From: Chondrosia reniformis
Taxonomy: Eukaryota > Porifera > Demospongiae > Chondrillida > Chondrillidae
Length of the DNA stretch: 64,000 nucleotides
Assembly (NCBI GenBank): GCA_947172415.1
Contig: OX359193.1
Coordinates: 1,250,501 to 1,314,500 of the forward strand
Direction: 5' to 3'
Shown: positions 6,003 through 31,117 of the stretch, one piece after another
Layout of the letters: every line of letters starts with the position of its first letter
How positions within the stretch are numbered: the first letter of the stretch is position 1
The notes under the pieces: model-generated
The model's database searches: none
Seen by the model: only the letters and a program-made list of their open reading frames with translations
What the model was told of the DNA's origin: nothing
Translations under genes and position numbers: made by a program

Positions 6003-6279
6003 GCCTTTAATGCAGCTGTATAGCAAGTAGCAACATGAATGGACACTATATAAAAATGCACCTATATATATAGTCTGATGAAAGGTCTAAAATATTGAGC
6101 AGCTGCAGGACACAGATCAAATCTCAGGTTTCAGAAGGCATGAAACCTATTTAAAACTCTTTGATTTGTCAGGTTTCCAAAGGTATGAAAGTTTGTATAA
6201 ACTTGGAAAGGGGGCTGTTAAAATTTGAAACCTATGAAATTACTCTATTAGTGCATACTTATAAAGCAAAATAAAAACA

Positions 6280-7165
6280 TTTTAAAAAATGAAATTAGAA
6301 GTAGGGATGGCCCATGCAACAAATGACAAACACATCTGGAAAAAGTAGAGAAACAAGACAGTGACCATGTGATAAGGCATACTGAAATTTAAGTGACTTA
6401 ACCATACACATCCCTTCTATGTTTGGGCGCACCATCCCTACTTCGATCAGCTATCATAATACTGGTGCACCCAAACATATATAGAAGTGATGTGTATGAT
6501 TAAGTCACTTAAATTTCAGTATGCCTTATCACATGGTCACTGTCTTGTTTCTCTACTTTTTCCAGATGTGTTTGTCATTTGTTGCATGGGCCATCCCTAC
6601 TTCTAATTTCATTTTTTAAATGTTTTTATTTTGCTTGTTTTCCCAATATTACTTGTTAAAATTTATTTTGTAAGTGTTCTCTTGGCGATAAATTTGCAAG
6701 GAGAGAGAGAGAGAGCAGATAACCCAGAAGTCTTAATTACAAAATGGCGTCCGAGGTCCCACTCTTAACACCTTCAGAAATAATATGCTTCGTGTAGAAC
6801 GTGTTCAAACCTATTCCCTAGTTCAGATTCGATTTGGTACGATTTGTATCAAAGGGAATAGGGTATTTCCCTCGACACCAGCGGTAGCTCAAGAAAAGAA
6901 AGAATAAGAAGAATTAATAAGACCGACAAAGTGTGGAATTTTTCAAGATGGCGGCTTTTGGTTTTTTCGTTCGCTACTGGTCTTCCCCTTATTTAATGGT
7001 TATCTCTGAACTTTGGGTAAGTTATATTTTTTTTAGAATTCAATTACAATTCGAGCGCTCCTTCACGACGAGTGCTACAGTCGATTTTACCGTGCACATG
7101 ACACCATACATTACATAGGGCGGCCATTTTTTCCTGGCCATCCCTACTATAGAGTACTACCGTAC
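6280..7165. mobile_element. Foldback non-autonomous transposable element, copy 1
   Basis: The left part (6280-6620) is a long inverted repeat. An arm of about 150 nt at 6280-6441 is mirrored with few mismatches at about 6470-6620 around a short loop. The motif agtagggatgg occurs at the outer left edge and its reverse complement ccatccctact occurs at 6588 and again near 7137-7149, so the larger unit of about 880 bp appears bounded by short terminal inverted repeats. The body holds a GA microsatellite near 6701-6716 and a block (6743 onward) containing 'aaaatggcgtccgag' that recurs in copy 2. No transposase is visible, so this looks like a MITE or foldback element mobilised in trans. Superfamily not determined. 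Confidence 0.75.
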
Positions 7166-7798: not shown

Positions 7799-8585
7799 AT
7801 ATATATTAATTTGTGATGACAGCTGTGGTTGAGTTTATGAAATATTTTGCATATTTATATGATTTGCATACCTGAGATACGTTCCACTTCCTAACTGAAG
7901 TACAGATAGTAGGAATTTTGTGTGCTAACACATTCAATTGAAATGCGAAGTACGTATAAATCTAACTTAATTTTGCAAAGTTAACACCACAATTGCAATT
8001 ATGCTTTCCTAGCTCTGTATCTGTGAACATATACATTTCCTTCACATTCATACTTCCCAGTTACAGGGATTAATGTATTACAGAGACATATGTACGTACG
8101 TATATATATATACGTAGTGTATTCAGAAATATATGACTATGTACAGTATATATAGTGACTATATAAAACTTGCACTGATTAATCCCACAAATCAAAAGAT
8201 TTTGTAACCTATACACTTGAACCCAGCATAATATAGGCAACCATGGCCGTTGCAGTACAGCTTGGTTTGGAAGGCATATTGGTGTTCCATTCTGCTATGG
8301 CATACAACATCTAAATGCAATTGGCATCATATCTAAATATTATGAAACCTATAGCTATTTAAAACATTTAGAGCTACAGTTGCAGGTTATGAAGATTTGC
8401 AAACCTCTAATCTACGATTTGCATGGTTGTGTCATATGAATAATATATAATAGTCTAATATACACCATTTTCCTACATGTTATGCCTATACTCTGTAGCG
8501 AACTATAAAAAGCCTAAAAGGAACTAAACCTGGAGGGAGCTTTGTATAATGTGCATAATAAAGTGTATAAATTAAAGTAAATAAA

Positions 8586-9515
8586 AAACATTTACAAAAA
8601 TGATGTTAGAAGTAGTAATGGCAGTGTTCACTAATACATCTGCAAAAAGTATCGAAACAAGACACTGATTATATATGATAAGGCTAATCATACAGAAGTT
8701 GCATATATACTGAAATTTAAGTAACTTAACCATACACTTCTGTGTTTGGGCGCACTAACCTTAAGTAGGAATGGTGCGCCCAAACACAGAAGTGTATGGT
8801 TAAGTTACTTAAATTTCAGTATATATGCAACTTCTGTATGATTAGCTATAGCCTTATCATATATAATCAGTGTCTTGTTTCGATACTTTTTGCAGATGTA
8901 TTAGTGAACACTGCCATTACTACTTCTAACATCATTTTTGTAAATGTTTTTTATTTACTTGTATTCCCCCTTTTTCCTCTTAATATTACTTGTTTTAAAT
9001 TGATTTGAAAGTTTTCTTGGCGAAGATCTCAAAATAACGTCTTAGACAAGAGAAATTTGCCGAAAACCATGATCTCTTAATTAAAAAAATGGCGTCCGAG
9101 AAGACCACAATTTTCGCTCTTCACAATTAATATGCTTATTGTAGAGCGCATTCAGATTTAGGGCTGTCTATTCCCTAGTTCCGAAATATTTATGACGATT
9201 TATAACTAGTAAGTGCCCGCATAAGTTCGCATATTAGCGCTAGTCTATTCAATAAAAGAAGAAGAAGAAGAAGAAGAAAAAATGAATTTTGGAAGTGGGT
9301 CTATTCCTAGTTAGCCGCTTTTTGAACGCTATAGAGCGTGTAGAGCGTCGAAACATGTTTTGACATTTAGGAAAGCGTGCATTAATCGCTGCAAATAACC
9401 GAATATAACCGAAAATCGCTTCGTTGGCGATTTATGAGGTGTTGATTGCTAATACATTGGATAGGGCGGCCATTTTTTTCCCCGGCCATTCCTACTTAGA
9501 GAGTACTACCGTACT
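8586..9515. mobile_element. Foldback non-autonomous transposable element, copy 2
   Basis: Same family as 6280-7165. The foldback arms lie at about 8586-8765 and 8770-8945, pairing over most of their length around a tiny loop. The right part shares blocks with copy 1 (aatattacttgttt, ttcttggcga, aaatggcgtccgag) and ends with the same 'gggcggccattttt' motif followed by agagtactaccgtact. Length is about 930 bp. No coding capacity seen. Confidence 0.75.
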
Positions 9516-10029: not shown

Positions 10030-10782
10030 TCACATAAGGTCTGCCTTCTCTTCACCATCAGTGACATCTGGATTTAGGTTGACCTTGATATCTTCATCTG
10101 GGGATGGGGCAACTGAAAATGCAACACTATCCTTTGGTACTTTCTTTCTGCCACTACTGTGTGCACAAACAAAAATTAAAGAGCGTCAAAATAACGAGGC
10201 AAATATACCTATGCATACATGTATGATCTCACAATATATATTATTAGAGACCATAAAGATGTGGTAGTATGTAGTATGCAACTGCAGGCATGTAGAACAA
10301 AAGTATTAAACACAATTGGCTAAGAAACAAACTGTATACTACAGTACATGTAGGATTCACAAAAGATCAAGATCAAGAAAAAGACAAAGATTCCCAGGGT
10401 CACTGATGAAGGGTGGAATTCCCAGAAAGAGCTGTCCGGCTCAGTATAGCAGAAGAAGAAAAGAAAAGAAATGACTCTTGTATCTTCATCCAAAGCCCTC
10501 TCCAGGTTTAGTTCCCTATAGGCTTTTTACAGAGTAGGCATAGCATGTAGGAAAATGATGTATTAGATTTTTCATGTACATATTATATATTATAATTAAA
10601 TCATGTGTTAAATGATTACTCTGGTATTTTACTTATAACCTATAAACATACATAATAAAAAAGACCACTCCAGTAACAACAGCAATAACAGCAATCAGTA
10701 GGACACCCACTATTACTGGAACTACAATGGCGGCAATATGGACTCCAGTCGCCTCTGGAGTTGGTGTGGAGGAAGCTGGTAC
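10030..10782 (-). other. Single transmembrane exon and cytoplasmic tail exon
   Basis: Exon 10640-10782 encodes a short Pro/Thr spacer and a helix of about 27 residues (IAAIVVPVIVGVLLIAVIAV and onward) ending YVYR. It splices in phase 2, through a weak gttata donor, to 10030-10156, which encodes a basic SGRKK stretch, an acidic tail (PSPDEDIKVN, TDGEEKADLM) and TGA. No further membrane exon is seen before foldback copy 2. Confidence 0.85.
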
Positions 10783-13700
10783 CTGAAAGTGAGAAGAGGA
10801 TTACATGGCCACAAGTTTTTTATACTCAAAATACTTGTGTTTTTGACATACTATTGTAGAGCTAGGGCTTATCTGTTGCCAATAGGATGGATTAGTTATT
10901 TGTTGTTATATGAACCACATATATTTGTGTAGTACAGTGTTATTTTTTTAAAATGGCACCTACGTATGTACATTTGGAATTTGGTTAGTGAGGGATTCTG
11001 ATAATAAAGGTTTGAAAAACTGAGAATGCTTTATGCATGCAGCATCACATGTCATGTATATAAATGTGAATGAAGTGATATGTGATGTTTGTTTTGTTCA
11101 AGATTCATATGGGCTTGACCTAGCGTCTTCATCCTTCTTATGATCAAAGCTCAATAAAACCAGGATACATATAAATATGCATACATGTACATATAAGTCT
11201 AGCCAAGCCATGAATGGCAAATACTACAATTCAACTCACTTGCACAGCTGCAAAACTAGTAAGATGATTGCACTGACAGTACAAGAACTCAGAAGTCTCC
11301 CTCTCCACTTTGCAACCTTCTTCAGACCAAACACCCAACCCATCTACAAGCCCAGGTAGAAGATAATCAAAGTGCCTCCATGCTCTTTATATACGTATAA
11401 AACAATAATTATCAACTATATTGGTGTAATTATGACAAATTAGAGTATTAGAAAGTCACCTGAGGTGTCCCAAAACCTGCAAGTCATTTTCATGTTCTCT
11501 GCAACATTCTGCATGTACATACATACATATATATACATTTAACTATGCAAAGTTAAACCAATACAATTTATAAATATAAAGTTACCATTTTCTTTCTTAA
11601 TTTGACTGTAACTGGATCTATCAAATCAGATACACTTTCTTCCAAAATGTAAACTGTCAGAGAAAATACTGAACTGGACACAATCAAGCTTTTATTTCTT
11701 CCAGAAAAGATAGTTTCAGATATTATGGCACTACTGATGCGAACCGACGTTGTACTCAAGCTTCCAAACACAGAACGAGGAATGGTAGCCTCAGCATCAC
11801 TTCTTCCTGGATGGCTCACAGAGAAACCAGCTGAAGGTATGTTTCTGATCTCCATTTCAATTGCAAAGAGTGCAAAATTAGCCTGTGCAGCTGCAAAGCT
11901 TTCTCCTTCTGCCAAGTCAATATTTACATTGATGTCATCAAATATATTCTCAAGCCTATAAACCAGAAAGATATACAATTTCAGTTTAATTAAATCACAA
12001 CCAAAATGGCCTCCACAGTACCTATTAGATGTCTCAGATTTTTCACTGGTTTCCTTTAAAACAGCCGCATCAACAGAGAGGAGTAAGTCAATATTAGTCA
12101 GTGTATTTCTTCTTAACTGTTTGAAAAAAGGAAGAATTGTACTATAATACTATAAGGCGCTACTAGTAATATAGAAGCACTATATTCTCTAACCATAGGG
12201 TTATTGACTACATTGGAATCTACTGAATTGGCAATGACATTAACGATTGCTGCCACATCACCAGCTTCAAGTTCTTCAATATTAAAATTTTCAAAAACAT
12301 CCTCTAAACTAGTACCATCCTATAATTCAAATGAGAGGGAGCAGAAGTAATAATCATAATAGTTTATGTATGCATATAAATAATATAATAGTTTATGTAT
12401 ACATATAATTAAAATAAGAGTTTATGTATGCATATAAATAAGATAATAGTTTATGAATGTTACATAGCTTGCAATGTACATCTGATTCAGCTGTTACCTT
12501 GCAAAAAGCTTCCAAAGCCTCACCAGTGCAAGCCTCAAAATCCGTATCCATCCACCTTCCATCTTGACCACATCCTCTAAAGGCAAACAATCCAAGTGTC
12601 AACTCTGGTGATTGCTCACAAGGACACTGAATTCTTGCCTCTTCTCCATAGAGTGTCAGTGGCCATTGAAACAGTCCATTTAATGCTGTGATTCTCTCAG
12701 TTACAGCAGGACATGGTACAGCTATAAGAACAATGAACAAGTATTATCTGTTACATTAGCTGTTTTGGGTGCAGTGTGTGCTTGGAAATAGCCTAGGTCT
12801 ATTTTGTGTTGCGCAATCGCTCAGTTGTCATGGAAACTCGAATTCACAATATGGAGTAGATAGAGAATTTTATTCTGAGCAAAATAATACCTAGTATAGC
12901 CTATAATCTCACTTTATGACTGATATAAAGCCTTATAAAAAGATAAAACATTAATGTATGGGAGGGTAGGAGGGTTAATATGTACGTACTAGCTGTTTTG
13001 GGTGCAGTGTATGGTACTTGGAAATAGCCCTACAGGTCTAAGGCCTACACAAAGTAAAATAAGATACGATGCTGATAATAATGATGATAAACTACAAAAT
13101 AATGATGCTTCTATCACTGTATTCATTCCATCATATATAATAATGATGCAAGGTAAATCTTACTGGTACTTACTGGATGTAGGTGAAGGAGAGGTACTGG
13201 GAGTGACTGATGGTATGTGTATTGATGGAAGTAGAAATAGAAGAAAGAACAAATGAAGATCAATTATATACATTACATATAAATTATGATACTCATTTAG
13301 ATGTAAGCAAGGTACTGGGAGTGTTCGATGGTATATGTACAGTATTTATGGAGAAATTGATGCTTAAAGTGAAAATAAAAAATATTGATCCCCGACATTC
13401 AGCCTTACAAACTATCAATACAGACGATCTATCACTTTATTCATTCTATCAAATTAATCATGCAAGGTAAATCTTACTGGTACATACTTACTGGATGTAG
13501 ATGAAGGAGACTGTGAGGTACTGGGAGTGACTGATCGTGATGGTATGCGTATTGATGGAGAAATTGATGCTTAAAGTGAAAATAAAATAAATATTGATTC
13601 CCCGACATTCAGGCTTACAACTATCAATACATACAAATGACATGTTTATATACACTCTATCACTTTATTCATTCTATCAAATTAATCATGCAAGGTAAAT

Positions 13701-16700
13701 CTTACTGGTACTTACTGGATATAGATGAAGAAGAGGTACTGGGAGTGACTGATGGTATGCGTATTGATGGAGAAATTGATGCTTAAAGTGAACAGAATAA
13801 TTATAAATATTGATCCCCGACATTCATACACTGAAGCACACTTTGTAAGATAAAGAGTACAGTTAATCTCTATTGAAACTCACTGGTAGCATTTTCACAA
13901 TAGGTCCCTTTATAAGAAGAAGTACATTGACATGTTTGCGTGTCTTCATTGCAGGTTCCATTGTTGAAGCAATAGAAACTGCCACAAGATGGTCCAGGAA
14001 CTGCAATGTTGATATATGTATGAATAATCAAAGTGTTAAGTAACTATAGTCATTCTCAAATATCATGAAGGGGAAATAACACAAAAGAAGCAATTGCTGG
14101 AAATCAAACCCAGGACAACTGGTTATGACCACCAGTGCTCTTTCACTGAGCTACAATTGCCACAGCAATACTACGTTCATGTTTCTTATGCTTACTACAA
14201 AAAGTATAATCTTCATTCACTAATTAGAGATGATTCTGTATCATTTCTATTGCTAAACACATGGATCTTAAATATACGTACACAAATCAACTAAGGCTGT
14301 GTGTATGAATCATGTTAGCCATAAGAAATATATATGAACAAACACTGTGATAATCAAAATTTAAATGTTGTGTCAAATTCACTTATGGGAAAACACTAAA
14401 GATGTAATTTTAAGAACCTAGGACAGGTGGACCAGGTGTAGCTAACTGAGCTAAACTACATGTCACAGCTATATGCCAAACCCTCCTGACCTCAAGAAGA
14501 TTAAGACACTTTTCAAGGAAAAGACCATAGCACTTATAAGCTAATCCGTATGAATAATATCTAAAAGCAGCTGTATACTGTATGTACAGTAAGTATGTAT
14601 ATACATTAGAGCACTGTTTTATAACTAATGTCATCATATACGTATATTACACTTGCATGATTACCCCACACCCACTCATGATTCCTGAGGAGTACTAGTG
14701 TAATGGGCTTGTATAGTACAGACATTGGTTTTGTATTTGGGACTCATCAGGATATTGTAAAATAGATCTCTGAGTCACAAATCTGTCAATAAGTACGTAC
14801 CACAAATCAAATATTTGGTGTCTACCTGATACGTACAGTAGATACGGGATATGCAGCCTACATATGACTGATCAATACACATCCTCTTTTGGGTGAAAAT
14901 GGAAGGAGGTCTTTGGTTTCTGTGGTTTTCATCAAGTGGACTTTGGTTATAGATCTACCAATTCAAACTCATTGTGCTATTCAAACAATGATAGGTTAAA
15001 TCCTTCAAATTTTAGATCCCTACTAAACACATTTACATAGTGAGAGCACCGTGTAAGAGGCTAACCAGATGTATAAAATACCTCTAGGGAAGAATGAAAC
15101 TCTATATATTATCATGATACCTACGGCATACCTATTTCACAGCTGTTCCCTCGGAAGGGATAAGGACAAGAACAGAAACCATCATAGCACGAGCCATTGT
15201 TCTGACAATCAGGTATACCTGCAGAAGAATATATAGGTATACCTTAGAAGATGAATAAAGTATATTTTTAATGCATAATAGATTCTATATATCTAATATT
15301 GGCAGAATATAAATATTATAATAGAGTAAGGATTTCTTCTAACTGCATCGAACTTATCTTTGGAAAGGGAGAAGACCCCAGGGTCGAAACGTCTGGCAGA
15401 AAGAAGAATAAAAAACTGCGTCTCTAGATGCTCCCAAAGTCGAAAGATGACCCTTTCCAAAGATAAATATTATAGTATTGCAGCTCAAGGCTGTGACTTG
15501 TGACTTCTCCAATCAACAATGGCCAAGTACACTGCTGTTCAGTCAGGTTGTCATAGTAGCCAGCCGTATATGAAGCATATTATATTGGCCGTATATTGGC
15601 ATGCTAGTTACCCCATACACAGTAGTGAAGAAGCCGACACAGACTATCTATGACCTGACTACCCATGTGTATAGTTGCTTGTGTATCCTTCAAAAAGAAA
15701 TGGACTCCATCGATATGCAAGCAACATCATGAGTCGTTCCTTGAATATGCACTGTAGCTGCACAAACGTCCAAAGTATTATTATGTACTATAATAACGTG
15801 TATATATGTGATAAGTAGTATACGGTATGTATATGTAGTATAAATATTGATGGATTTAAATTTATCCCATTTGGCCAAACCATCTAATTAAATCCCCACT
15901 AAATTCTTGGCTATACAGTGTATACGTATATGAACAAACCACACACAAATACAACATATTATACATAATATAGTAATTACTTACAAATTCTTTCAAAGCA
16001 GTCAAATCCAGTGTAGTTTTGTTGGCAAACACATGACTGGGTGATATTGTCACATCGTCCATAGTAACAAGTTTGCCGATTGAAATCACAATACTTTGTT
16101 TCTGGAAAATATAAAAACAAATCATATACATGTATATAGTATAATAATAAAATAAAGAACTATTTCATAAATTATTGCCTAATAATATTGAAATCTTCAT
16201 TACAAATTTCCTGTGATATTAAGGCACTTAATCTTACCAAATTCACAGCTCTTTCCATAGTAATCATAAGAACAATAACAGTAGCCATCATAGCAGGAGC
16301 CATTGTTCTGACAGGCTGGTATGCAAGACCTGTATTGGCAATATGGAGGCTCAAAGCCTTCCTTACAGTTGCACCTCTGCTCATCTACATCACATGTCCC
16401 ATTAAAACAGTAGTATCCCCCGCATGCAGGACCAGGAGCTAGAAGTAGGCAAATGAGAAAATAAAAGAGGAGGATTTCAAATTAATTGATTCACTTACGA
16501 ATCTCGCAACTTCTACCAGTAAATCCAAAAGGACAATAACACTTTCTATTATAACAGGATCCATTATTCAGACAATTTGGATTACCTGTAAAGGTAGAGT
16601 AGAATCATGACTATTTAAATTGAAAATTTATGCATGTAAGTAACTCATTAACTCACAAATTTCTCTTCTACATTCAGGTCCAGTAAACCTTTCTGTACAA

Positions 16701-19700
16701 ATGCAAGTGTCTCTATCACTGTCACATGTTCCGTTATTCCAGCAGTAGCTACCATTACAAGCTGGTCCAGGTGCTGTGTTGAGGGATTGAGGAACATTCA
16801 GTAATACATATCAAAGAAATGATATATAATATCTTACGAATGTTACAAGTTGATCCATTAAATCCATTAATACAGACACATCTTCCATCATAACAATAAC
16901 CATTTTCACATTCTGGTTCACCTAACGTTTGGAAAACAAAATATATATAAATTATAAAAACAGATATCTTCCTGCAATACATTGGAGTAATGTACAAACA
17001 TACATATTTCCATTTCACATCTTTCCCCTGTAATGTTTTCTCGGCAATAACATGTTTCATTCATGCAAGTGCCTCCATTAAGACAGTAATCACAGCCAAA
17101 CATGTCTATATGTGGAAATGGGTCCAGAAATAGAATAAGGGAGTACAGTATACCACTATACATATACTGTATGTGCAAGTATGCAATACTCCTTACATGT
17201 CTCACAGTATTGACCAGTGTAACCATAGTAACAGGCACATTCCATCCCCTTGCAGTTATAACTGCCATTGGGATTACAGTAGGTCTCACCTGCAGAAGAA
17301 ACAAGAAAGGATATACCACATTCATTGTGATGTTTGGGTTGCAGTAGCCCCATGACGTCTACACCCTTGTTTTACAAATGCTAAGCTCAAGCATTACGGG
17401 TGTTTCCAGTAGTAAAGAAAGGATATACACCACATGAAGAAACAATATTGATATATTCAGAGTAAGAAAAAATGTAAATGTATCTACAATATATGGTCAA
17501 ACCAAAACTCAGTTGAATGTATGTACATACGTATATAAAAGAACAATACGTATATATAAGGATTTACTGTATTGAATTAATCTTTTAGATGGATTATCTT
17601 TTTGAGTGTTAAGTATTGCTGCTTGTTCAATGACAATATAATTTCTAAACTGTGCACCTCTAGATGTTCAAAAGTCAAAAGGTGATCCATCTGAAAGAAC
17701 ACTAATTACTTACATATAGTGCTTTCACAGGTGTATCCAGTATATGGATAGGAGCAGTCACACTGATCACTGACACATGTAGCGTTATTTCCACAAAAAT
17801 AACTGCTATAGTTACCACAAACCTCAAGTTCTATACAACAACAGGACACCATATATATATATATATATACAATATATAAAGTATACACCACAATGCTACA
17901 AGATAAGAAACATAGAATGAATGATGTGTATATGTGCAACAGACTAGTTTCACAAGATCTTCCAGAAAACCCAAAAGGACACGAGCAGAATCCATCATAA
18001 CATGATGCATTATTCTGACAAGGAGGATCACCTATAGAGATAAGTATGCAATATACACTTTTACATTATCCTTTATCTACCCAAAATGGAAAATCACATA
18101 ATCTGTGTGTACAAATAATTTACTCACAATCTCTGTATTTGATGTCAACAGAATATTTAGAGAAAATAGTGTTTATTACATATAAAGTTGAAATATTTGT
18201 TTTTGCACTACTCTTAAATGGAAGTTGGCAACTCTTTGAATAATCTAATATAGAGTACTCACAATCTCTGTATCTACAGTTAGGTTGGAGGAATGGTTCC
18301 GGACAGTCACAGCCATTACCAGTAGCATTACATGTACCATTATTGTAGCAATATGACCCAGCACACACTGGTCCAGGTGCTGCATGAATAACAAGGGTAC
18401 ACATTAACAGGTTTCCATTTTTTACAATTCCTGTTATGATGTAATAATACTTTGTTTCCTATACAAAGCAGTATTGGAAGTGTTAATTATATACATACTT
18501 CCATGTATATCTATCTCCCTTTAAGATTGTTAGCTTTAATAGAGTTGAAACATACGTATGACTGTAAACAAGTTTATCAGTAGATTAATTAAAGTGCCTA
18601 TATCTAGCTAAAATTAACCTCTTTCACAACGGCTTCCGCTAAATCCAAATTCACAATAGCAATAATTTCTTTCAAAACAAGTTCCATTATTTTGACAAGG
18701 AGGGTCACCTAAGAAGAACATCAGGAGACTATATTTCATTATGTGCACTTGAGCAAGGTCTAGCTCCTTAAATCTGCAAGCTTAATGTCTGTGTGCTCTA
18801 AATAAAATAAACTCACAAACATTTATAAGACATTGGGTTCCAGTGAACTGACTAGGACAAGAACAGACACCATTATTACATGTACCGTTGTTGTAGCAGA
18901 TTGTACGGTTTGCTTCATCGCAGACGTTTAATTCTGCAAATTCAGAAAAGAGAACATAAAAGTGTATGTACACACATCGACTTTGGCAAATAGTAAATCT
19001 ATCCATTAAGTTTTACGTACATCCACTTTAATTTACTATATTCCACAACGTAATATGTAATGTCTCAACAGGATTGTGAAATCAATGAGCAATCAGTGAT
19101 ATATGCATACAAAGCAAAGAGAAATAAGTGTACATTCTTGAAAATAGACACAGCTACATATATATTGCTATAGTAAAAGCTTTTGAAGTATATACATATA
19201 ATATACACCCCGTTGCTGGGGCAACCAAGGCAAATTATTCCACAACTAGTGTATAACTATATGGAGAGGCACTTTGACCTCTTATTATATGTAGTTATAC
19301 AATGCCATATCCTGCCGATAACTCAGTAAATGCCTAAGGCTTGCATTATCCTGCAAAAAGCCTAGGGGCTGAGTATATATATATTAGTTATACAGCTTTT
19401 TCTTAAATATATATACGTATAATAATATCATGTTTGCAACAAGGTAATCAACATTTAAAGCTATATTCTTTACTTCTTTCACATCGACTGCCAGAAAATC
19501 CAAATGGACAAGTACAATAATTTGGATAAGCACATGTTCCATTATTCAAGCAGTCTTCTTCACCTAATATCAGTAGATGAAAAAAGAGTCTAAAGGCATT
19601 AATTAATACCTTGTAGCCAACCTTTTTCAGAAGTGAAGATGTGCATGATTAAATTAAAGCAACTATATATTTAGAAGATATTTTGAAAATAGTATAATTG

Positions 19701-22700
19701 GTATAAACTAAACATGTAAGTACACTGTACTTCATTAAATGCAATTATAGTCAGTTTAGTGTAAAGAAATACTGTAAATCCCTTTATTTAAGCAGAACCA
19801 AAACTGGATTTTACCCCTACATAGCGGAATTTAATATTAGCGACTTACAAGATGCATGGAAGTTTTGTTAGTTAATTACAGTAATACAGTATAGTACTAG
19901 TACTATATATAGCGAACTATAATTTTAGTGGTAAATGTCAAATCGCTAATATAGCTAAAATAATTATTTTAATAGCATGCTAATAATAAGGATTTACAGT
20001 ACATCACTTTTATAGAGTCCTAAAGCAAAGTCTTTCAGATGATTTAATCTTATCCCTATAGTCAGAAAGCCATGTACAGCCATATATAGGTACATACATA
20101 TGTACTTATATATGGCTGTACATGACTTTAACCGCACGGATCTATATCTTGTTGGGCGGTTTAGAGAGAATCTAGTTCAGGTACTCTGTATTCATGTATG
20201 TATCCATAATATGGAGTTTCAAGATCTACAAATAGACAGAAAACTCACATATTGGTTCATTGCAGGTGATCCCTGTGTATCCTGGGTGGCATTTGCAGAC
20301 ACCTGTGTCATTTTGACAGTTACCATAGAAACAGCTAATAGTACTGCAAATATCTAAGAAAGGAGTAAGTATATATGCTTGACTTAATAATTGTGCTGTC
20401 GCTATGTATATACTCTTTACTCATTAATAGGGTTTGCATTATATGTCACATAAGAGGAGTGGACATATTATTATGGATATTGTGTAGATGCTGGATTTTA
20501 AATCTAAACTGTAGGGTTAGACTTTCCCCAGAGAATCAAAAGATCTGAGGAAGATGAAGAAGAGGTACTTGGAGTGACTGATGGTATGTGTATTGATGGA
20601 GAAATTGATGCTTAAAGTGAAAAGAATAATTATAAATATTGATCCCCGACATTCATACACTGAAGCACACTTTGTAAGATAAAGAGTACAGTTAATCTCT
20701 ATTGAAACTCACTGGTAGCATTTTCACAATAGGTCCCTTTATAAGAAGAAGTACATTGACATGTTTGCGTGTCTTCATTGCAGGTTCCATTGTTGAAGCA
20801 ATAGAAACTGCCACAAGATGGTCCAGGAACTGCAATGTAAGTGTTAAGTAATTATAGTCATTCTCAAATATCATGAAGGGGGAATAACACAAAAGAAGCA
20901 ATTGTTGGAAATCAAACCCAGGACAACTGGTTATGACCACCAGTGCTCTTTCACTGAGCTACAAGTGCCACAGCAATACTACGTTCATGTTTCTTACACT
21001 TACTACAAAAAGTATAATCTTCATTCACTAATTAGAGATGATTCTGTATCATTTCTATTGCTAAACAAAATATACGTACACAAATTAACTAAGGCCGTGT
21101 ATGAATCATGTTAGCCATAAGAAATATATATGAACAAATACTGTGATAATCAAAATGCAAATGTTGTGTCAAATTCACTTATGGGAAAAACACTAAAGAT
21201 GTAATTTTAAGAACCTAGGACAGGTGGACCAGGTGTAGCTAACTAAGCTAAACTACATGTCACAGCTATATGCCAAACCCTCCTGACCTCAAGAAGATTA
21301 AGACACTTTTCAATGAAAAGACCATAGCACTTATAAGCTAATCCGTATGAATAATATCTAAAAGCAGCTGTATACTGTATGTACAGTAAGTATGTATATA
21401 CATTAGAGCACTGTTTTATAACTAATGTCATCATATACGTATATTACACTTGCATGATTACCCCACACCCACTCATGATTCCTGAGGAGTACTAGTGTAA
21501 TGGGCTTGTATAGTACAGACATTGGTTTTGTATTTGGGACTCATCAGGATATTGTAAAATAGATCTCTGAGTCACAAATCTGTCAATAAGTACGTACCAC
21601 AAATCAAATATTTGGTGTCTACCTGATACGTACAGTAGATACAGGATATGCAGCCTACATATGACTGATCAATACAATACTCATGAGTCCTAATGTGCCA
21701 GCAGACACATGTCTATTCCTCCTAGTCCTCCTCTTTTTGGGTGAAAATGGAAGGAGGTCTTTGGTTTCTATGGTTTTCATCAAGTGGACTTTGGTTATAG
21801 ATCTACCAATTCAAACTCATTGTGCTATTCAAACAATGATAGGTTAAATTCTGAAATCATTTCAAATTTTAGATCCCTACTAAAGACATTTACATAGTGA
21901 GAGCACCGTGTAAGAGAAAGGCTAACCAGATGTATAAAATACCTCTAGGGAAGAATGAAACTCTATATATTATCATGATACCTACGGCATACCTATTTCA
22001 CAGCTGTTCCCTCGGAAGGGATAAGGACAAGAACAGAAACCATCATAGCACGAGCCATTGTTCTGACAATCAGGTATACCTGCAGAAGAATATATAGGTA
22101 TACCTTAAAAGATGAATAAAGTATATTTTTAATGCATAATAGATTCTATATATCTAATATTGGCGGAATATAAATATTATAATAGAGTAAGGATTTCTTC
22201 TAACTGCGTCAAACTTATCTTTGGAAAGGGAGAAGACCCCAGGGTCGAAACGTCTGGCAGAAAGAAGAATAAAAAAACTGCGTCTCTAGACGCTCCCAAA
22301 GTCGAAAGATGACCCTTTCCAAAGATAAATATTATAGTATCGCAGCTCAAGGTTGTGACTTGTGACTTCTCCAATCAACAATGGCCAAGTACACTGCTGT
22401 TCAGTCAGGTTGTCATAGTAGCCAGCCGTATATGAAGCATATTATATTGGCCGTATATTGGCATGTTAGTTACCCCATACACAGTAGTGAAGAAGCCGAC
22501 ACAGACTATCTATGACCTGACTACCCATGTGTATAGTTGCTTGTGTATCCTTCAAAAAGAAATGGACTCCATCGATATGCAAGCAACATCATGAGTCGTT
22601 CCTTGAATATGCACTGTAGCTGCACAAATGTCCAAAGTATTATTTATGTACTATAATAACGTGTACTATACGGTATGTATATGTAGTATATATACATACG

Positions 22701-25700
22701 TAAGTGTATAAATATTGACGGATTTAAATTTATCCCATTTGGCCAAACCGTCTAATTAAATTCCCACTAAATTCTCGGCTATACAGTGTATACGTACATG
22801 AACAAACCACACACATATACAACATATACAACATACATATACTAATTACTTACAAATCCTATTATTGCAGGCAAATCCAGTGTAGTTTTGTTGACAAACA
22901 CATGACTGGGTGATATTGTCACATTGTCCATAGTAACAAGTTTGCTGATTGAAATCACAATACTTTGTTTCTGGAAAATATAAAAACAAACCATATACAT
23001 GCATATAGTATAATAATAAAATAAAGAACTATTTCATAAATTATTGCCTAATAATATTGAAATCTTTATTACAAATTTCCTGTGATATTAAGGCACTAAA
23101 TCTTACCAAATTCACAGCTCTTTCCATAGTAATCATAAGAACAATAACAGTAGCCATCATAGCAGGAGCCATTGTTCTGACAGGCTGGTATGCAAGACCT
23201 GTATTGGCAATATGGAGGCTCAAAGCCTTCCTTACAGTTGCACCTCTGCTCATCTACATCACATGTCCCATTAAAACAGTAGTATCCCCCACATGCAGGA
23301 CCAGGAGCTAGAAGTAGGCAATTGAGAAAATAAAAGAGGAGGATTTCAAACTAATTGATTCACTTACGAATCTCGCAACTTCTACCAGTAAATCCATAAG
23401 GACAGTAACACTTTCTATTATAACAGGATCCATTATTCAGACAATTTGGATTGCCTGTAAAGGTAGAGCAGAATCATGACTATTTAGATTGAAAACTTAT
23501 GTATGTAAGTAACTCATAAACTCACAAATTTCTCTTCTACATTCAGGTCCAGTAAACCTTTCTGTACAAATGCAAGTGTCTCTATCACTGTCACATGTTC
23601 CATTATTCCAGCAGTAGCTACCATTACAAGCTGGTCCAGGTGCTATGTTGAGGGATTGAGGGACATTCAGTAATACAAAGTTGTACGTACGTATGTATCA
23701 AAGAAGTGTAATATAATATCTTACGAATGTTACATGTTGTCCCATTAAATCCTTCAATACAGAAACATCTTCCATCATTACAATAACCATTTTCACATTC
23801 TGGTTCACCTAACGTTTGGAAAACAAAAAATAGAAAAACAAATTAATAAACCTTTAATGCATTGGAGTAATGTACAAACATACATATTTCTATTTCACAT
23901 CTTTCCCCTGTAAAGTTTTCTCGGCAATAACATGTTTGATTCATGCAAGTGCCTCCATTAAGACAGTAATCACAGCCAAACATGTCTATATGTGGAAATG
24001 GGTCCAGAAATAGAATAAGGGAGTACAGTATACCACTATACATATACTGTATGTACAAGTATGCAATACTCCTTACATGTCTCACAGTATTGACCAGTGT
24101 AACCATAGTAACAGGTACAATTCATCCCCTTGCAGATATAACTGCCATTGGGATTACAGTAGGTCTCACCTGCAGAAGAAACAATATTATGATACTCGGA
24201 GAAAGAAAAAATGAAAATGTATCTACAATCAAACCAAAACTCAGTTGAATGTACGTACGTACGTACGTGTCTAAAAGAACAATACGTATATATAAGGATT
24301 TACTGCATGAAATAATCTTTTAGATGGATCATCTTTTTGAGTGTTCAGTATTGCTGCTTGTTCAAATACAATATAATTTCTAAACTGTGCACCTCTAGAT
24401 GTTCAAAAGTCAAAAGGTGATCCATCTGAAAGAACACTAATTACTTACATATAGTGCTTTCACAGGTGTATCCAGTATATGGATAGGGGCAGTCACACTG
24501 ATCACTGACACATGTAGCGTTATTTCCACAAAAATAACTGCTATAGTTACCACAAACCTCAAGTTCTATACAACAACAGGACACCATATATATATATATA
24601 CAATATATAAAGTATACACCACAATGCTACAAGATAAGAAGCACAGAATGAATGATGTGTATATGTGCAACAGACTAGTTTCACAAGATCTTCCAGAAAA
24701 CCCAAAAGGACACGAGCAGAATCCATCATAACATGATGCATTATTCTGACAAGGAGGATCACCTATAGAGATAAGTATGCAATATACACTTTTACATTAT
24801 CCTTTATCTACCCAAAATGGAAAATCACATAATCTGTGTGTACAAATAATTTACTCACAATCTCTGTATTTGATGTCAACAGAATATTTAGAGAAAATAG
24901 TGTTTATTACATATAAAGTTGAAAAGTTTGTTTTTGCACTACTCTTACATGGAAGTTGGCAACTCTTTGAATAATCTAATATAGAGTACTCACAATCTCT
25001 GTATCTACAGTTAGGTTGGAGGAATGGTTCCGGACAGTCACAGCCATTACCAGTAGCATTACATGTACCATTATTGTAGCAATATGACCCAGCACACACT
25101 GGTCCAGGTGCTGCATGAATAACAAGGGTACACATTAACAGGTTTCCATTTTTTACAATTCCTGTTATGATGTAATAATACTTTGTTTCCTATACAAAGC
25201 AGTATTGGAAGTGTTAATTATATACATACTTCCATGTATATCTATCTCCCTTTAAGATTGTTAGCTTTAATAGAGTTGAAACATACGTATGACTGTAAAC
25301 AAGTTTATCAGTAGATTAATTAAAGTGCCTATATCTAGCTAAAATTAACCTCTTTCACAACGGCTTCCGCTAAATCCAAATTCACAATAGCAATAATTTC
25401 TTTCAAAACAAGTTCCATTATTTTGACAAGGAGGGTCACCTAAGAAGAACATCAGGAGACTATATTTCATTATGTGCACTTGAGCAAGGTCTAGCTCCTT
25501 AAATCTGCAAGCTTAATGTCTGTGTGCTCTAAATAAAATAAACTCACAAACATTTATAAGACATTGGGTTCCAGTGAACTGACTAGGACAAGAACAGACA
25601 CCATTATTACATGTACCGTTGTTGTAGCAGATTGTACGGTTTGCTTCATCGCAGACGTTTAATTCTGCAAATTCAGAAAAGAGAACGTAAAAGTGTATGT

Positions 25701-27752
25701 ACACACATCGACTTTGGCAAATAGTAAATCTATCCATTAAGTTTTACGTACATCCACTTTAATTTACTATATTCCACAACGTAATATGTAATGTCTCAAC
25801 AGGATTGTGAAATCAATGAGCAATCAGTGATATATGCATACAAAGCAAAGAGAAATAAGTGTACATTCTTGAAAATAGATACAGCTACATACGTATATAT
25901 TGCTATAGTATATATACGTATAGCTTTTAAAGTATATATGTATATAATATACACTCCGTTGCTGGGCTAACCAAGGCAAATTATTCCACAACTAGTGTAT
26001 AACTATAATGAGAGGCACTTTGACCTCTTATTATAGTTATATAATGCCATATCCTGCCGATAACTCAGTAAATGCCTAAGGCTTGCATTATCCTGCAAAA
26101 AGCCTAGGGGCTGAGTATATATATATCAGTTATACAGCTCTTTCTATAAATATATATATATATAATAATATCATGTTTGCAACAAGGTAATCAACATTTA
26201 AAGCTATATTCTTTACTTCTTTCACATCGGCTGCCAGAAAATCCAAATGGACAGGTACAATAATTTGGATAAGCACATGTTCCATTATTCAAGCAGTCTT
26301 CTTCACCTAATATCAGTAGATGAAAAAAGAGTCTAAAGGCATTAATTAATACCTTGTAGCCAACCTTTTTCAGAAGTGAAGATATGCATGATTAAATTAA
26401 AGCAACTATATATAAACTAAACATGTAAGTACACTGTACTTCATTAATGCAATTATAGTCAGTTTAGTGTAAAGAAATACTGTAAATCCCTTTATTTAAG
26501 CTGAACCAAAAGTTAGTGAAACTGGATTTTACCCCTACATAGCGGAATTTAATATTAGCGACTTACAAGATGCATGGAAGTTTTGTTAGTTAATTAAAGT
26601 AATACAGTATAGTACTAGTACTATATTTAGCGAACTATAATTTTAGCGGTAAATGTCAAATCGCTAATATAGCTAAAATAATTATTTTAATAGCATGCTA
26701 ATAATAAGGATTTACAGTACATCACTTTTATAGAGTCCTAAAGCAAAGTCTTTCAGATGACTTAATCTTATCCATATAGTCAGAAAGCCATGTACAGCCA
26801 TATATAGGTACATACATATGTACTTATATATGGCTGTACATGACTTTAACCGCACGGATCTATATATTGTTGGGCGGTTTAGAGAGTTTAGTTCAGGTAC
26901 TCTGTATTCATGTATGTATCCATAATATGGAGTTTCAAGATCTACAAATAGACAGAAAGCTCACATATTGGTTCATTGCAGGTGATCCCTGTGTATCCTG
27001 GGTGGCATTTGCAGACACCTGTGTCATTTTGACAGTTACCATAGAAACAGCTAATAGTACTGCAAATATCTAAGAAAGGAGTAAGTATATATGCTTGACT
27101 TAATAATTGTGCTGTCGCTATGTATATACTCTTTACTCATTAATAGGGTTTGCATTATATATCACATAAGAGGAGTGGACATATTATTATGGATATTGTG
27201 TAGATGCTGATTTTAAATCTAAACTGTAGGGTTAGACTTTCCCCAGAGAATCAAAAGATCTGAGGAAGATACTGTAATCATAACTAGACAATATATTTAT
27301 AAAACAGTGCAAATTGCAATGCTACAGTACTCTAAAGTAATGTAATTAATGTAATGAGATTCATGGAGTTAAAGTGCAAATTCTTTCTTATGTAAAGTTA
27401 TCATTACACTGTCTCATTAGTCTTAGGCTGCATGTGTACGTATATACGTATATATATCCAAATTTTAACTTGAAGTTAGCTAATACAAGGGGGTAGGCCT
27501 ATATATCTAAAGAAATTCACAAGTGTTGTTTATGCCCGGGATACATTAAAATGAACCTGGCAAGGCTGATAAACACAAGGTGCATATAAACAAGGTTAAA
27601 CGCGTAACAGACAAGGACCCGAGTATATAGATGTCAAGAGTGTTTCATACAAACGATGAGGATGCAGGCTTTTGCTTACCTGTTGAAGTTCGCACTGGTT
27701 CAGGATAGATCGATAAAACGGTAATCCAGAACAGCAAAAATATCTGTACCAT
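10030..27752 (-). CDS. Large EGF-repeat / HormR-like / GAIN-GPS receptor with a single transmembrane helix
   Basis: Hand-built model of 43 exons, 1,637 codons including stop, open and in phase throughout. Order: signal peptide exon (27680-27752, start MVQIFLLFWITVLS), 34 EGF-like domains in two near-identical blocks of 16 exons, two Ser/Thr/Pro stalk mini-exons, a HormR-like exon, GAIN-like exons, a GPS motif split over two exons, one hydrophobic helix and a 42-residue tail. EGF and stalk exons are all phase 1-1, so whole blocks can be gained or lost in frame. EGF-HormR-GAIN-GPS is the usual adhesion-GPCR ectodomain order, but there is one helix and a stop codon instead of seven helices. By family knowledge the GPS should self-cleave at His-Leu/Thr, leaving a large non-covalently held N-terminal fragment. 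Ligand and signalling role are unknown. Start chosen because it gives a clear signal peptide and a phase-1 donor. Confidence 0.9.
10363..10583. repeat. Dispersed repeat family member in an intron of the EGF receptor
   Basis: Long copy of the family described at 56468-56728, opposite orientation. It sits between the transmembrane and tail exons of the receptor. Confidence 0.8.
11240..11343 (-). other. GPS autoproteolysis motif exon
   Basis: Continues the GPS begun in exon 11460-11508: VWSEEGC, then YCQCNHLTSFAAVQ. All landmark residues are present: CxxW, W, GC, CxCxHLTxFA. Cleavage is expected between Leu and Thr of HLT, so the motif looks catalytically competent. Confidence 0.9.
11460..12319 (-). 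other. GAIN-like domain exons
   Basis: Exons 12194-12319, 12022-12116, 11586-11955 and 11460-11508, phases matching throughout. The first two are helical and acidic, as in GAIN subdomain A; the third reads beta-rich sequence (NIPSAGFSVS, SAIISETIFSG, LIVSSSVFSLTVY). The last starts the GPS with NMKMTCRFWDTSG. Together they sit where a GAIN domain must be, directly before the GPS. Confidence 0.75.
12498..12721 (-). other. HormR-like domain exon
   Basis: Encodes about 75 residues with CPAVTERI, a WP-T-G-E-A-CPC segment, then FRGCGQDGRWMDTDFEAC. The spacing WPxTxxGxxAxxxCP...RxCxxDGxW...C is that of the hormone-receptor domain found just before GAIN domains in adhesion GPCRs. A CCP/sushi-like reading is the alternative. 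Enters in phase 1 and leaves in phase 0. Confidence 0.7.
13492..13781 (-). other. Ser/Thr/Pro stalk mini-exons of the EGF/GPS receptor
   Basis: Two paralogous mini-exons, 13716-13781 (66 nt) and 13492-13569 (78 nt), each with a ttaag acceptor and gtaagt donor and both phase 1-1. They encode SISPSIRIPSVTPSTSSS-type sequence, rich in Ser, Thr and Pro, as expected for an O-glycosylated stalk between the EGF array and the HormR-like domain. Two degenerate copies lie downstream in transcription: about 13316-13371 has an in-frame TAA and no donor, and 13174-13231 keeps a donor but lacks an acceptor. Confidence 0.8.
14090..14160 (-). tRNA. tRNA-like sequence (degenerate tRNA or tRNA-derived element), copy 1
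   Basis: Read on the minus strand it forms a 7-bp acceptor stem (GCAATTG/CAATTGC), a D arm with an A-box-like TAGCTCAGTGAAAGAGCA, a 5-bp anticodon stem CTGGT/ACCAG and a T arm with a B-box-like GGGTTTGATTTCC. The anticodon loop GGTCATA lacks the expected U33, so identity cannot be assigned. It lies in an intron of the EGF receptor. Confidence 0.55.
15355..15470. mobile_element. Small hairpin element (MITE-like) in an EGF-receptor intron
   Basis: Termini 'tatctttggaaaggg' and 'ccctttccaaagata' are perfect inverted repeats about 110 bp apart, with an internal inverted pair around 'gggtcgaaacgtctgg'. It is copied with the duplication at about 22215-22330. A diverged start also appears at the right edge of the window (about 63938-63975). 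Confidence 0.7.
17580..17702. mobile_element. Second small hairpin element in an EGF-receptor intron
   Basis: Termini 'cttttagatggat' and 'atccatctgaaag' are imperfect inverted repeats about 115 bp apart. The matching copy in the other unit is near 24312-24434. The layout resembles the 15355 element but the sequence is different. Confidence 0.5.
19195..19400. mobile_element. MITE-like element sharing its ends with the insertion at 31,152
   Basis: One end reads taatatac-ccgttgctggggcaacc and the other near 'tattagttatac'. The same two ends, in the opposite order, bound the insertion at 31152-31571 in channel copy B. The inner part contains 'gcctaaggcttgcattatcc'. A duplicated copy lies at about 25945-26145. 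Confidence 0.5.
20898..20968 (-). tRNA. tRNA-like sequence, copy 2 (carried by the tandem duplication)
   Basis: Duplicate of 14090-14160 with the same D, anticodon and T arms. Its acceptor stem has a mismatch (GCACTTG against CAATTGC), suggesting less constraint on this copy. Confidence 0.5.
22215..22330. mobile_element. Small hairpin element, duplicated copy
   Basis: Copy of 15355-15470 within the second duplication unit, with the same inverted termini and only a few substitutions. Confidence 0.7.
27680..27752 (-). other. Signal-peptide exon of the EGF/GPS receptor
   Basis: First coding exon: Met followed by a hydrophobic stretch (MVQIFLLFWITVLS), then polar residues, ending in a gtaagc donor after one base of the next codon (phase 1). 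It defines secretion and the type I topology of the protein. Confidence 0.85.
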
Positions 27753-28547: not shown

Positions 28548-31117
28548 CTATGGTGTCCGTGGATCTTCTTTAATTACACTCTCTTGCTTCTTGAAGGATC
28601 TTTGACTAAATGAGCGACTCATAGCAGGAGGATCAACAAGAGAGTGTAGGGTTTTGTTAAGCTTCTCAACTTCTCTCTTGATGAGCTTAAGGTCTTCCTT
28701 AAGTTCATCTACTTTTGTTGAATCAGAAGATCTACATATTTACATTTAGTAGAAATGGAATTTTAGTTTCAGATGTAAAATGGATGCCTTACTCTGAAGA
28801 CCTTTTCTTCTCGTGTGCTTCTTTCAAGGCTTCAATTCTCTCTTCATCTTCATTATTAGATAAACATATAACTTGCAAAATCATGCATGCATGTACCTGT
28901 TTAACTTACTAATTAGGAGGTACTGTCTATAAGGTAATTCCCCTAAATCTTGCCTATATCTGTTTAGATGTCTGGCTAAAGCTTGATAATATTTAGTGTT
29001 AACTCCCTCTGCAGTATCTTCATATGTCTTACTCATTTGAGCAATTAACACATTTAGCAAGACAACAATCACAAAGAACAGGAAGACAAGGTAAGCTATC
29101 ATTGGCAGCCACCTAAAAGTAAATGAAGTACCAAAGAATTCCCCTAAATGTTAAAATTAATGGGAAATATGCTTACGAGAATCCAATGTATGTTCCTGTG
29201 CTATCAGTTGCAAAATAATCATCCAACAGTCCTCCACCCTCGATTAGTGTACGTATGCCAAAGAATAGAGTGTGCCAAGGATAACTGAAGAAAAAGTATT
29301 TTTATACTTTAATACTAGAAGTATATTTTATATTATACAGATCTATAGAAAATTAAATACATTTTTAATTAATGAGGAATGTAGCAACCAACACTTACAG
29401 TGTGTCCAAAGGATGCAAGGTTTGATCCGGCTTAACGTTTCCATTATCCTCAATCAATATTCCAGACCTCAGTGCAAGGTAAAATGAACCCACAAAGACA
29501 AAGAGGACCAACATAAAGAACACCAAAAATCTAGATATGTCTTTCTTCAAAATTTCCACCAAGGCATACAGGTAAACTCCTGTAAACCTGTAAAGGTAAA
29601 TTAATATATATGAGCTATGAACAGCCAAATATGGAGCCAAATATGGAGTATACTGTATATACATACATAAATATAGAAGTTCAAATCGAAACATGTATCA
29701 TTAGATACTCAAAAGATGAACACTTTCAAAGATATGCATGTACATAGTTGGAAGAAATCAACATCATATATATATATATATATCTTAAGTATAAGCACTA
29801 TAGCCTAGGTTACACTATACAGCAAAATGTGTATTGATAGTTGTTAGGAAAGTAAGTTCAAAATATAGCTTTTTCTTATAAATGACGTATTGTAAGCTTA
29901 TTCTACTAGTTCAGTGATACAAAACATGGTGACTTACTTATAAACTGTTACAAACTCAAAAATCAGCATTGCGTTGAAGAAATAGACCAGACAGGCAAAC
30001 ACCCATTGCTGTGTTGATGCATAAACACAAATGCTATTGATCTCAATATTGTTTGGTGAAGGCATACTACAGTAGTCAATGCCAGTTGATGCACACCAGG
30101 TTGTAGTAGCTCTCAAAGGAACCACAAACAGTAATGGGATTAATATTGCAGGTATCTGCAGCCAATTGAGATGATCCTTAAAGTAATTCTTGGCACTAAA
30201 AAAAGCAAAATTCACGACACTGTTTAATATGTAAGTATGTATACCCAGTAAATATATAAAATATGGTCTGTTAAGTACGTATTTACTTTCTCATTTCTAT
30301 CACTTCATCAAATAGTTTCCAAATAAAGTACATCAATGACAATATCTCAAAGGCAAGTCTAGCCCAATCCCAGCTGTCCACATAGCACCCTGGATTAGGG
30401 CGGTCTGGTCTGCTACCTATGAGGAAAGCCATGGTCAAAATTGCCATTCTAATCAGATAGAAGAAAAACAGCTTCCTGTAGAGAGAAAAGGAAGAGCGAG
30501 ACATAAATGTTTAACAGAAAGTAGTACTGTAGCAATTAAAGTGATTTCCTTACGTATGGCGGACAAATGCAAAATTCCACTTGTAATCCAGTAATGTTTG
30601 AACAGCAGGATGAGAAGCAACCGTCTATACATATATACATACAATATAAAATATAAAACAACTGAGTACTACTAGCTACATACCGGCTATATGAACAAAC
30701 AATGTACTGCCAATTTTTGTGTAATGTTTTACTTTACTAAACGATTAGTCCATCTGTTATTAATTTGTAGAGGCTTTATTATTCCTAAATAAATGTACTA
30801 CTGTAGTCTGCATGATAACTAACCTGCTTTGAAGCCAAATGAAAAAAAGGTTTCATTTTGCTAGTCCTAACTCTTTTTTCAGCGTCATTCTCTTTGCAAA
30901 AAGTGAATGGCCTTGTACAAGTAAACAAATAGTTGAGTGGAATCTTTAGAACAAAAATCAACAGGATGAGGAGACTGTGGCAACAGCCATGATGCTGATC
31001 TTCGTGCTCTTTAATGTTGCCAATACTTTCATAACTGGGGCTATCAGTGTCAAGAGCTTCACAAATCACTACTCTATTTCCGACAACAAACTTATCCAGT
31101 GCAGTCTCAGTCAACTC
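28548..31117 (-). other. Channel domain and C-terminal coiled-coil exons of copy B
   Basis: Exons 22-30: 30824-31117 (extra hydrophobic segment SLLILLIFVLKIPLNYLF), 30554-30624 (pre-S1), 30287-30475 (S1 and S2), 29938-30195 (S3 and S4), 29399-29587 (S5), 29177-29284 (pore loop), 28910-29112 (S6), 28793-28847 and 28548-28731 (charged coiled coil with heptads such as VDELKEDLKLIKREVEKLNK). Exons 20-21 are 32524-32689 and 32392-32455. Phases agree across all junctions. Confidence 0.85.

Follow-up and report, generated by a model that had tools for sequence, protein, structure and literature searches.

Apart from the adhesion G-protein-coupled receptors (GPCRs; class B2, with HormR, GAIN and seven-helix modules), the PKD1-like proteins have been named in a 2025 paper as the sole other GAIN family (PMC11697300). 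A GPS followed by one predicted membrane helix is described for the sea-urchin proteins SpREJ1, 8 and 9 (PMC1934368), and Drosophila Cirl yields isoforms with a single transmembrane helix (1TM; Bormann et al. 2025, as told in PMC13197933). In the literature searched, which took in mostly papers outside subscription and no preprints, REJ and Cirl were the only natural one-helix GPS cases found, and no separate gene family joining HRM and GAIN to one helix was described. The stretch considered here is a 64,000-nucleotide piece of the genome of the demosponge Chondrosia reniformis (contig OX359193.1, 1,250,501-1,314,500, labelled chromosome C5 in locus names; hereafter the window), whose minus strand carries a predicted gene for an adhesion-GPCR-type ectodomain on a single membrane helix. 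A first-pass annotation of this DNA had assigned the GPS to proteins with seven (7TM) or eleven helices only, which the one-helix SpREJ proteins and Cirl isoforms contradict. As judged from exon structure and domains, the gene is a member of a family of about 25 one-helix genes and not a lone truncated GPCR; these are probably self-cleaving single-pass adhesion proteins in which the GAIN would form a release joint without a G-protein module.

The spliced model comprises 43 exons with GT-AG introns in one reading frame from the ATG at 27752 to the TGA at 10030, and its predicted product of 1,636 aa consists, in order, of a signal-peptide-like start, 34 epidermal growth factor (EGF) modules, a Ser/Thr stretch, a HormR-like module, GAIN with GPS, one membrane helix and a short basic tail before the stop. 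The residues of the GPS are intact (C, W, W, GC, C-x-C and H-L↓T, with the arrow at the predicted cut between residues 1540 and 1541 of the 1,636-residue model) and the Pfam GPS family is matched with 50.9 bits against a cut-off of 22.5. Two donors are available to the helix exon, GTATGT (10652) and GTTATA (10640), both in frame and both leaving a single helix; the former is the better donor and is more likely to end the exon, which would shorten the product to 1,632 aa and change nothing else. The earlier observation of an in-frame gene with an intact GPS and one helix is confirmed in this predicted model, and its 34 EGF modules are found again as two blocks of 17. The HormR-like module holds in part: Pfam HRM reaches 22.3 bits in the spliced protein, under its cut-off of 26.2, and 28.4 bits, over it, when the frame neighbours are included in the genome search, with 31.4 bits (over) in a paralog on C14 and 22.8 (under) in the paralog at C5:1230 kb.

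The solved structures matched by this gene at E≤0.001 were adhesion-GPCR chains in 19 of 19 distinct sequences, and so were those matched at the same threshold by a profile built from three family members, in 17 of 17; the longest alignments were to ADGRG2 and covered profile positions 147-320 (GAIN-B and GPS), the remaining ones being shorter. By the tests made, the gene is a relative of adhesion GPCRs that is neither a GPCR nor a polycystin. A GAIN with GPS is present (Pfam GPS, and GAIN-B aligned to adhesion-GPCR structures); behind it no 7tm_2 is found, only one helix and then the stop; and the stalk after the cut reads TSFAAVQ, which keeps F3 of a hydrophobic tethered agonist of the F3, L6, M7 type and has V6 and Q7 at the other two positions. 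The gene carries all the traits by which the one-helix family of C. reniformis was defined, namely a GPS exon that ends in phase 0 after stalk position 7, a helix exon with a phase-0 start and a phase-2 end, a basic tail exon and no 7tm_2.

The extent of this family was determined by Pfam searches of 117,379,552 bases in 15 contigs, which give lower bounds, the candidates scored being 98 of 98 for GPS, 150 of 158 for HRM, 150 of 153 for 7tm_2 and 76 of 153 for EGF. At least 92 GPS exons and at least 111 7tm_2 matches were obtained. A 7tm_2 match lies on the same strand within 8 kb of 61 of the 92 GPS exons (within 2 kb in 58 of the 61), and the other 31, among them all 12 on chromosome C5, have none within that distance. 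These 31 are divided into 25 one-helix genes, this one included, two genes counted as 7TM-type, as their GPS and next helices are 7TM-like (L033 and L038), and four of ambiguous type that were excluded from the counts (L029, L030, L032 and L036, with V, V, D and V at stalk position 7). A search for the same GAIN-GPS-1TM layout, which the first-pass annotation had proposed for the proteome, yields about 25 genes in the genome, selected by the analyst's judgement from a helix scan of the DNA behind the GPS exons (7 kb in 21 genes and under 1 kb in L031, L034, L035 and L037); in each of them a helix segment lies at most 0.9 kb behind the GPS exon, those of L027 and L031 being weaker (KD about 2.5, below the 2.7 of the chance control described below).

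The exon boundaries are largely shared. In 24 of the 25 genes the codon for position 7 of the cut stalk is directly followed by a phase-0 GT, the GPS donor scoring only 3/6 in L012, L025, L034 and L035; a phase-0 AG before the helix is available in all 25, other phases often being available too, and a phase-2 donor (at least 4/6) follows the helix in 24, with L016 as the exception. In 17 loci a short tail exon was picked by eye among candidates, in part for its basic start, which is therefore not an independent trait. HRM matches, some under the curated cut-off, are located at most 3.5 kb upstream of the GPS in 20 of the 25. The one-helix genes mostly lie in small clusters, and the gene in the window is one of four within 80 kb. 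Beyond the first helix, KD values of at least 3.0 occur in low-complexity Ile/Leu runs of L017 and in one Ser/Thr-rich helix of L011; at L014 (C5:742500-752400) a single GPS exon is followed by two copies of the helix exon (+552 and +2805), possibly alternative exons.

The helix of this gene has a KD of 3.28 and is flanked by the phase-0 AG and phase-2 donor that were required in a chance control, for which 2000 stretches of 900 nt were drawn at random from the window and scanned in 21-residue segments. In this control a KD of at least 2.7 was reached in 115 stretches and of at least 3.0 in 18, and the combination of KD at least 2.7, phase-0 AG and phase-2 donor (at least 5/6, a stricter rule than L012, with 4/6, and L016, with none, comply with) in just 17, on which ground a helix exon by chance was rejected. 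Transcripts joining the GPS exon to seven-helix exons had been named beforehand as what would overturn a one-helix receptor; in the nearest test that could be run, no 7tm_2 match was found on chromosome C5, the window included, among the matches listed (E≤0.01, 150 of 153 candidates scored), and a seven-helix part farther downstream was rejected. The first-pass statement that a complete GPS and a single helix stand here without a G-protein module agrees with these results.

The two classes of genes differ in the stalk that follows the cut. A hydrophobic residue stands at position 7, which drives agonism in 7TM receptors, in 63 of 63 7TM-type genes (61 of 61 without the reassigned L033 and L038) and in just 2 of the 25 one-helix genes (Fisher 3e-19); since copies within clusters are near-identical and not independent, with 14 distinct stalk 7-mers among the one-helix genes, distinct 7-mers were also counted, giving 17 of 17 versus 2 of 14 (6e-7). 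Leu occupies position 6 in 62 of 63 7TM-type and 8 of 25 one-helix genes, position 3 holds Phe or Tyr throughout both classes, and the cut motif H-x-T/S is retained in 21 of the 25 one-helix genes, as HLT in this one. In the stalk of ADGRF1, alanine at F3, L6 or M7 abolished basal activity (PMC9046087). A retained cut motif together with a relaxed position 7 is the pattern expected from selection that acts on the joint but not on the agonist. An ADGRE2 GAIN ectodomain placed on a single PDGFR helix cleaves itself efficiently, membrane tethering favouring the cut (PMC12488864), so that a one-helix GAIN can be cleavage-competent. The wider proposal of a third gene-encoded GAIN class beside adhesion GPCRs and polycystins is favoured by a small measure: in this sponge family selection would hold the self-cutting joint and let go of the tethered agonist, one helix would be joined at the intron directly behind the agonist, and the GAIN would act purely as a breakable adhesion joint.

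The exon structure, domains, single helix, family, selection and loss of the agonist residue are read from the DNA; self-cleavage, non-covalent retention, release by force and a ligand are steps that we infer. The product would be a type-I single-pass adhesion receptor, with the EGF stalk and the HormR-like module carried on the GAIN, which would cut itself at HL↓T in the endoplasmic reticulum, the two halves staying associated. The ectodomain would then be held non-covalently on a membrane stub, a single helix with a short basic tail, from which a pull on the EGF stalk or ligand binding would release it; for isolated GAIN domains, forces of about 95-160 pN are reported (PMC13197933). Such release would serve as a detachable adhesion joint or a shedding switch and not as G-protein activation, because the seven-helix bundle is absent and the stalk has lost its agonism-driving residue.

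The three closest paralogs have the same HRM, GAIN, GPS and helix exons. Their dN/dS (ratio of nonsynonymous to synonymous substitution rates) versus this gene is 0.37, 0.22 and 0.23 for HRM-GAIN-GPS (319-322 codons) and 0.42, 0.34 and 0.38 for the helix exon (42 codons, dS near 1), a comparison that shows purifying selection on the predicted coding exons, the helix exon included. Several points weigh against a selected, self-cleaving family. The helix-exon ratios are rough, as most of these comparisons, made over 42-45 codons, have a dS near 1; two recent C14 copies compared with each other give 0.59 and 0.41, of which the 0.59 is adverse, as is the stop in one copy; and subdomain A of the GAIN had no Pfam match in the spliced protein and was not recognised in the structure alignments. 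Moreover, Gly replaces Thr/Ser at the cut site (P1') in L022, L023, L024 and L037, which on this residue should not be self-cleaving, so that cleavage would not be essential in every member. The full seven-helix part further enhances GAIN cleavage (PMC12488864), and by analogy a one-helix GAIN may cut less well than a GAIN on 7TM.

A different role would be that of an obligate partner of a 7TM adhesion GPCR, the one-helix protein tuning the signalling of its 7TM sister through ectodomain pairing, as a 1TM-7TM pairing is reported for fly Cirl (PMC13197933). At least 61 7TM-type GPS genes share the genome, and in 14 of the 63 genes of this type a donor follows stalk position 7 just as in the one-helix genes; the sponge 1TM forms, however, are separate genes without a nearby 7tm_2 and not isoforms of a 7TM gene, and the 7TM exons of a Cirl-type isoform were found neither in the window nor among the chromosome matches, which makes this role unlikely. 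Also quite unlikely is an independent signalling receptor, whose helix and tail, after ectodomain loss, would signal via scaffolds or a Notch-like second cut. A class I PDZ-type motif ends 8 of the 17 predicted family tails, a number that 0 of 5000 composition shuffles reached and that suggests scaffold binding in some members, and the tails start with basic residues; nevertheless, this gene's own tail, with its ADLM end, lacks a class I motif, the length is no more than 26-75 residues in 16 of the 17 tails (245 in the other), and no enzyme-like domain was seen in them by eye, nor by Pfam in the scan made of this gene's tail.

Decay or misassembly of a 7TM adhesion GPCR could be read from the TGA in the HRM exon of the close paralog at C14:1996 kb and from a recent internal EGF duplication, but it is largely refuted by the one-helix family, and has become very improbable: the frame is open over its full length, selection also acts on the helix exon, 25 genes have compatible exon phases and the chromosome is devoid of 7tm_2 matches among the candidates scored. 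Descent by reduction from a polycystin-1/REJ-type protein, to which the GPS and single helix of sea-urchin REJ1, 8 and 9 (PMC1934368) would lend themselves, is the most improbable of all and was rejected, no REJ, PLAT or channel match in the genome being fitting: there is none in this gene, nor any on the coding strand at most 10 kb from the other one-helix GPS exons, the three REJ matches all fall within the first 0.44 Mb of C7, a long way from any one-helix gene, 0 of 7 polycystin-channel matches are near one, two of the three PLAT matches are at most 2.4 kb from the C5:580 kb GPS but on the opposite strand, with the third 45 kb from a C7 gene, and all structure matches are adhesion GPCRs, a weak argument since PMC11697300 had no experimental PKD1 GAIN structure available to it.

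As to the origin of the one-helix family, the helix exon could have replaced 7TM exons at the position-7 intron, because the donor there is shared with 14 of the 63 7TM-type genes. In a tree of 60 distinct GPS stretches, most one-helix genes group in one half with the 7TM genes of like intron position, but not as one clade, and L031 falls among other 7TM genes; the stretches, of at most 26 residues, are too short to decide the origin, and support values were not considered.

Table 1. Parts of the one-helix gene, in positions of the window.
Feature	Position	Strand	Basis or remark
Exon 1: start codon and hydrophobic signal-peptide-like N-terminus (MVQIFLLFWITVLSIYP)	27680..27752	-	signal peptide judged by eye
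EGF block 1: 16 phase 1-1 exons, 17 EGF modules	20713..27069	-	Pfam EGF families (first 398 aa of the protein scanned)
EGF block 2: 16 exons, 17 EGF modules	13884..20353	-	DNA alignment to block 1
Ser/Thr/Pro-rich short exons	13492..13781	-	13781-13716 and 13569-13492 modelled; exon number uncertain, additional nearby copies excluded from the model
HormR/HRM-like module exon	12498..12721	-	Pfam HRM
GAIN N-terminal part, exons 12319-12194 and 12116-12022	12022..12319	-	matching stretches in three paralogs; Pfam silent
GAIN subdomain B exon	11586..11955	-	alignment to solved adhesion-GPCR GAIN domains; 76-79% identical in C14 copies
GPS exon a (CRFWDTS)	11460..11508	-	Pfam GPS
GPS exon b: GC...CQCNHL↓TSFAAVQ; phase-0 intron directly after cut-stalk position 7	11240..11343	-	
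Single membrane-helix exon	10652..10782 (alternative in-frame donor: end at 10640)	-	three paralogs have this exon too
Cytoplasmic tail exon: basic start SGRKK, end ADLM, then TGA	10030..10156	-	

The two EGF blocks share 94.6-96.7% DNA identity over four aligned pieces, and window positions 13884-27069 contain a recent internal tandem duplication of 6.5 kb that doubles the EGF array; the count of 34 modules is, on this alignment, the product of that duplication, although an assembly effect may lie behind the doubling, given the single block seen at the C5:1230 kb paralog. Among the EGF matches listed (76 of 153 candidates scored), all but the first exon of one block, in unchanged order, are found upstream of that paralog; the C14 gene near 1.95 Mb has a related array upstream, with the first part of the block about three times. 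The close paralog L020/L092 (C14:1994600-2005900) has a TGA within its HRM exon and is a pseudogene or bears a sequencing error or a variant. A tRNA-like sequence called tRNA-SeC by ARAGORN is placed inside an intron (14087-14161) and may be a tRNA-derived repeat; a relative, seen by eye and without an ARAGORN call, is found in the duplicated intron near 20,960. Just upstream of the gene, at 28553-31100 on the minus strand, lies a channel-like gene, the last of whose three scanned exon frames matches PKD_channel with 20.3 bits (cut-off 22.4) and Ion_trans with 20.0 (cut-off 25); Pfam gave sub-threshold channel matches only on the ten neighbouring frames scanned. Downstream, at 6269-6632 and 8570-8965, long near-perfect inverted repeats with arms of 73-157 nt and 94-100% complementarity resemble hairpins of miniature inverted-repeat transposable elements (MITEs).

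A natural family with a self-cutting joint but no seven-helix part would separate the mechanical from the agonist role of the GAIN, which matters for adhesion GPCRs. The family is also a warning against naming GPCRs from the GPS motif alone, as was done with an incomplete transcript in a study of sponge immunity (PMC6208332): in this genome the practice would mislabel 25 of 92 GPS exons, 92 being a lower bound.

Compared with the adhesion GPCRs, the gene has in common the EGF/HRM ectodomain, the GAIN-B sequence, a GPS with HL↓T and the donor right after stalk position 7 found in some 7TM-type genes of the same genome; it differs in having one helix instead of seven, a polar residue (Q) at position 7 and Val at position 6 instead of the usual Leu. 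The Cirl 1TM forms likewise place an adhesion-GPCR ectodomain on one helix; as told in PMC13197933 they are intron-retention isoforms of a 7TM gene, whereas in the sponge each form has a gene of its own, in which the helix has a dedicated exon and no 7tm_2 match is found. SpREJ1, 8 and 9 share with the one-helix family a GPS followed by one predicted helix and the status of a multigene family, but their ectodomains are of the REJ/PKD1 type, while the sponge genes are without REJ and PLAT and most have HRM. The engineered ADGRE2 ectodomain on a PDGFR or calnexin helix (PMC12488864) is alike in carrying a GAIN on a single helix, with self-cleavage shown there; that construct is a laboratory chimaera, whereas the gene of C. 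reniformis is natural.

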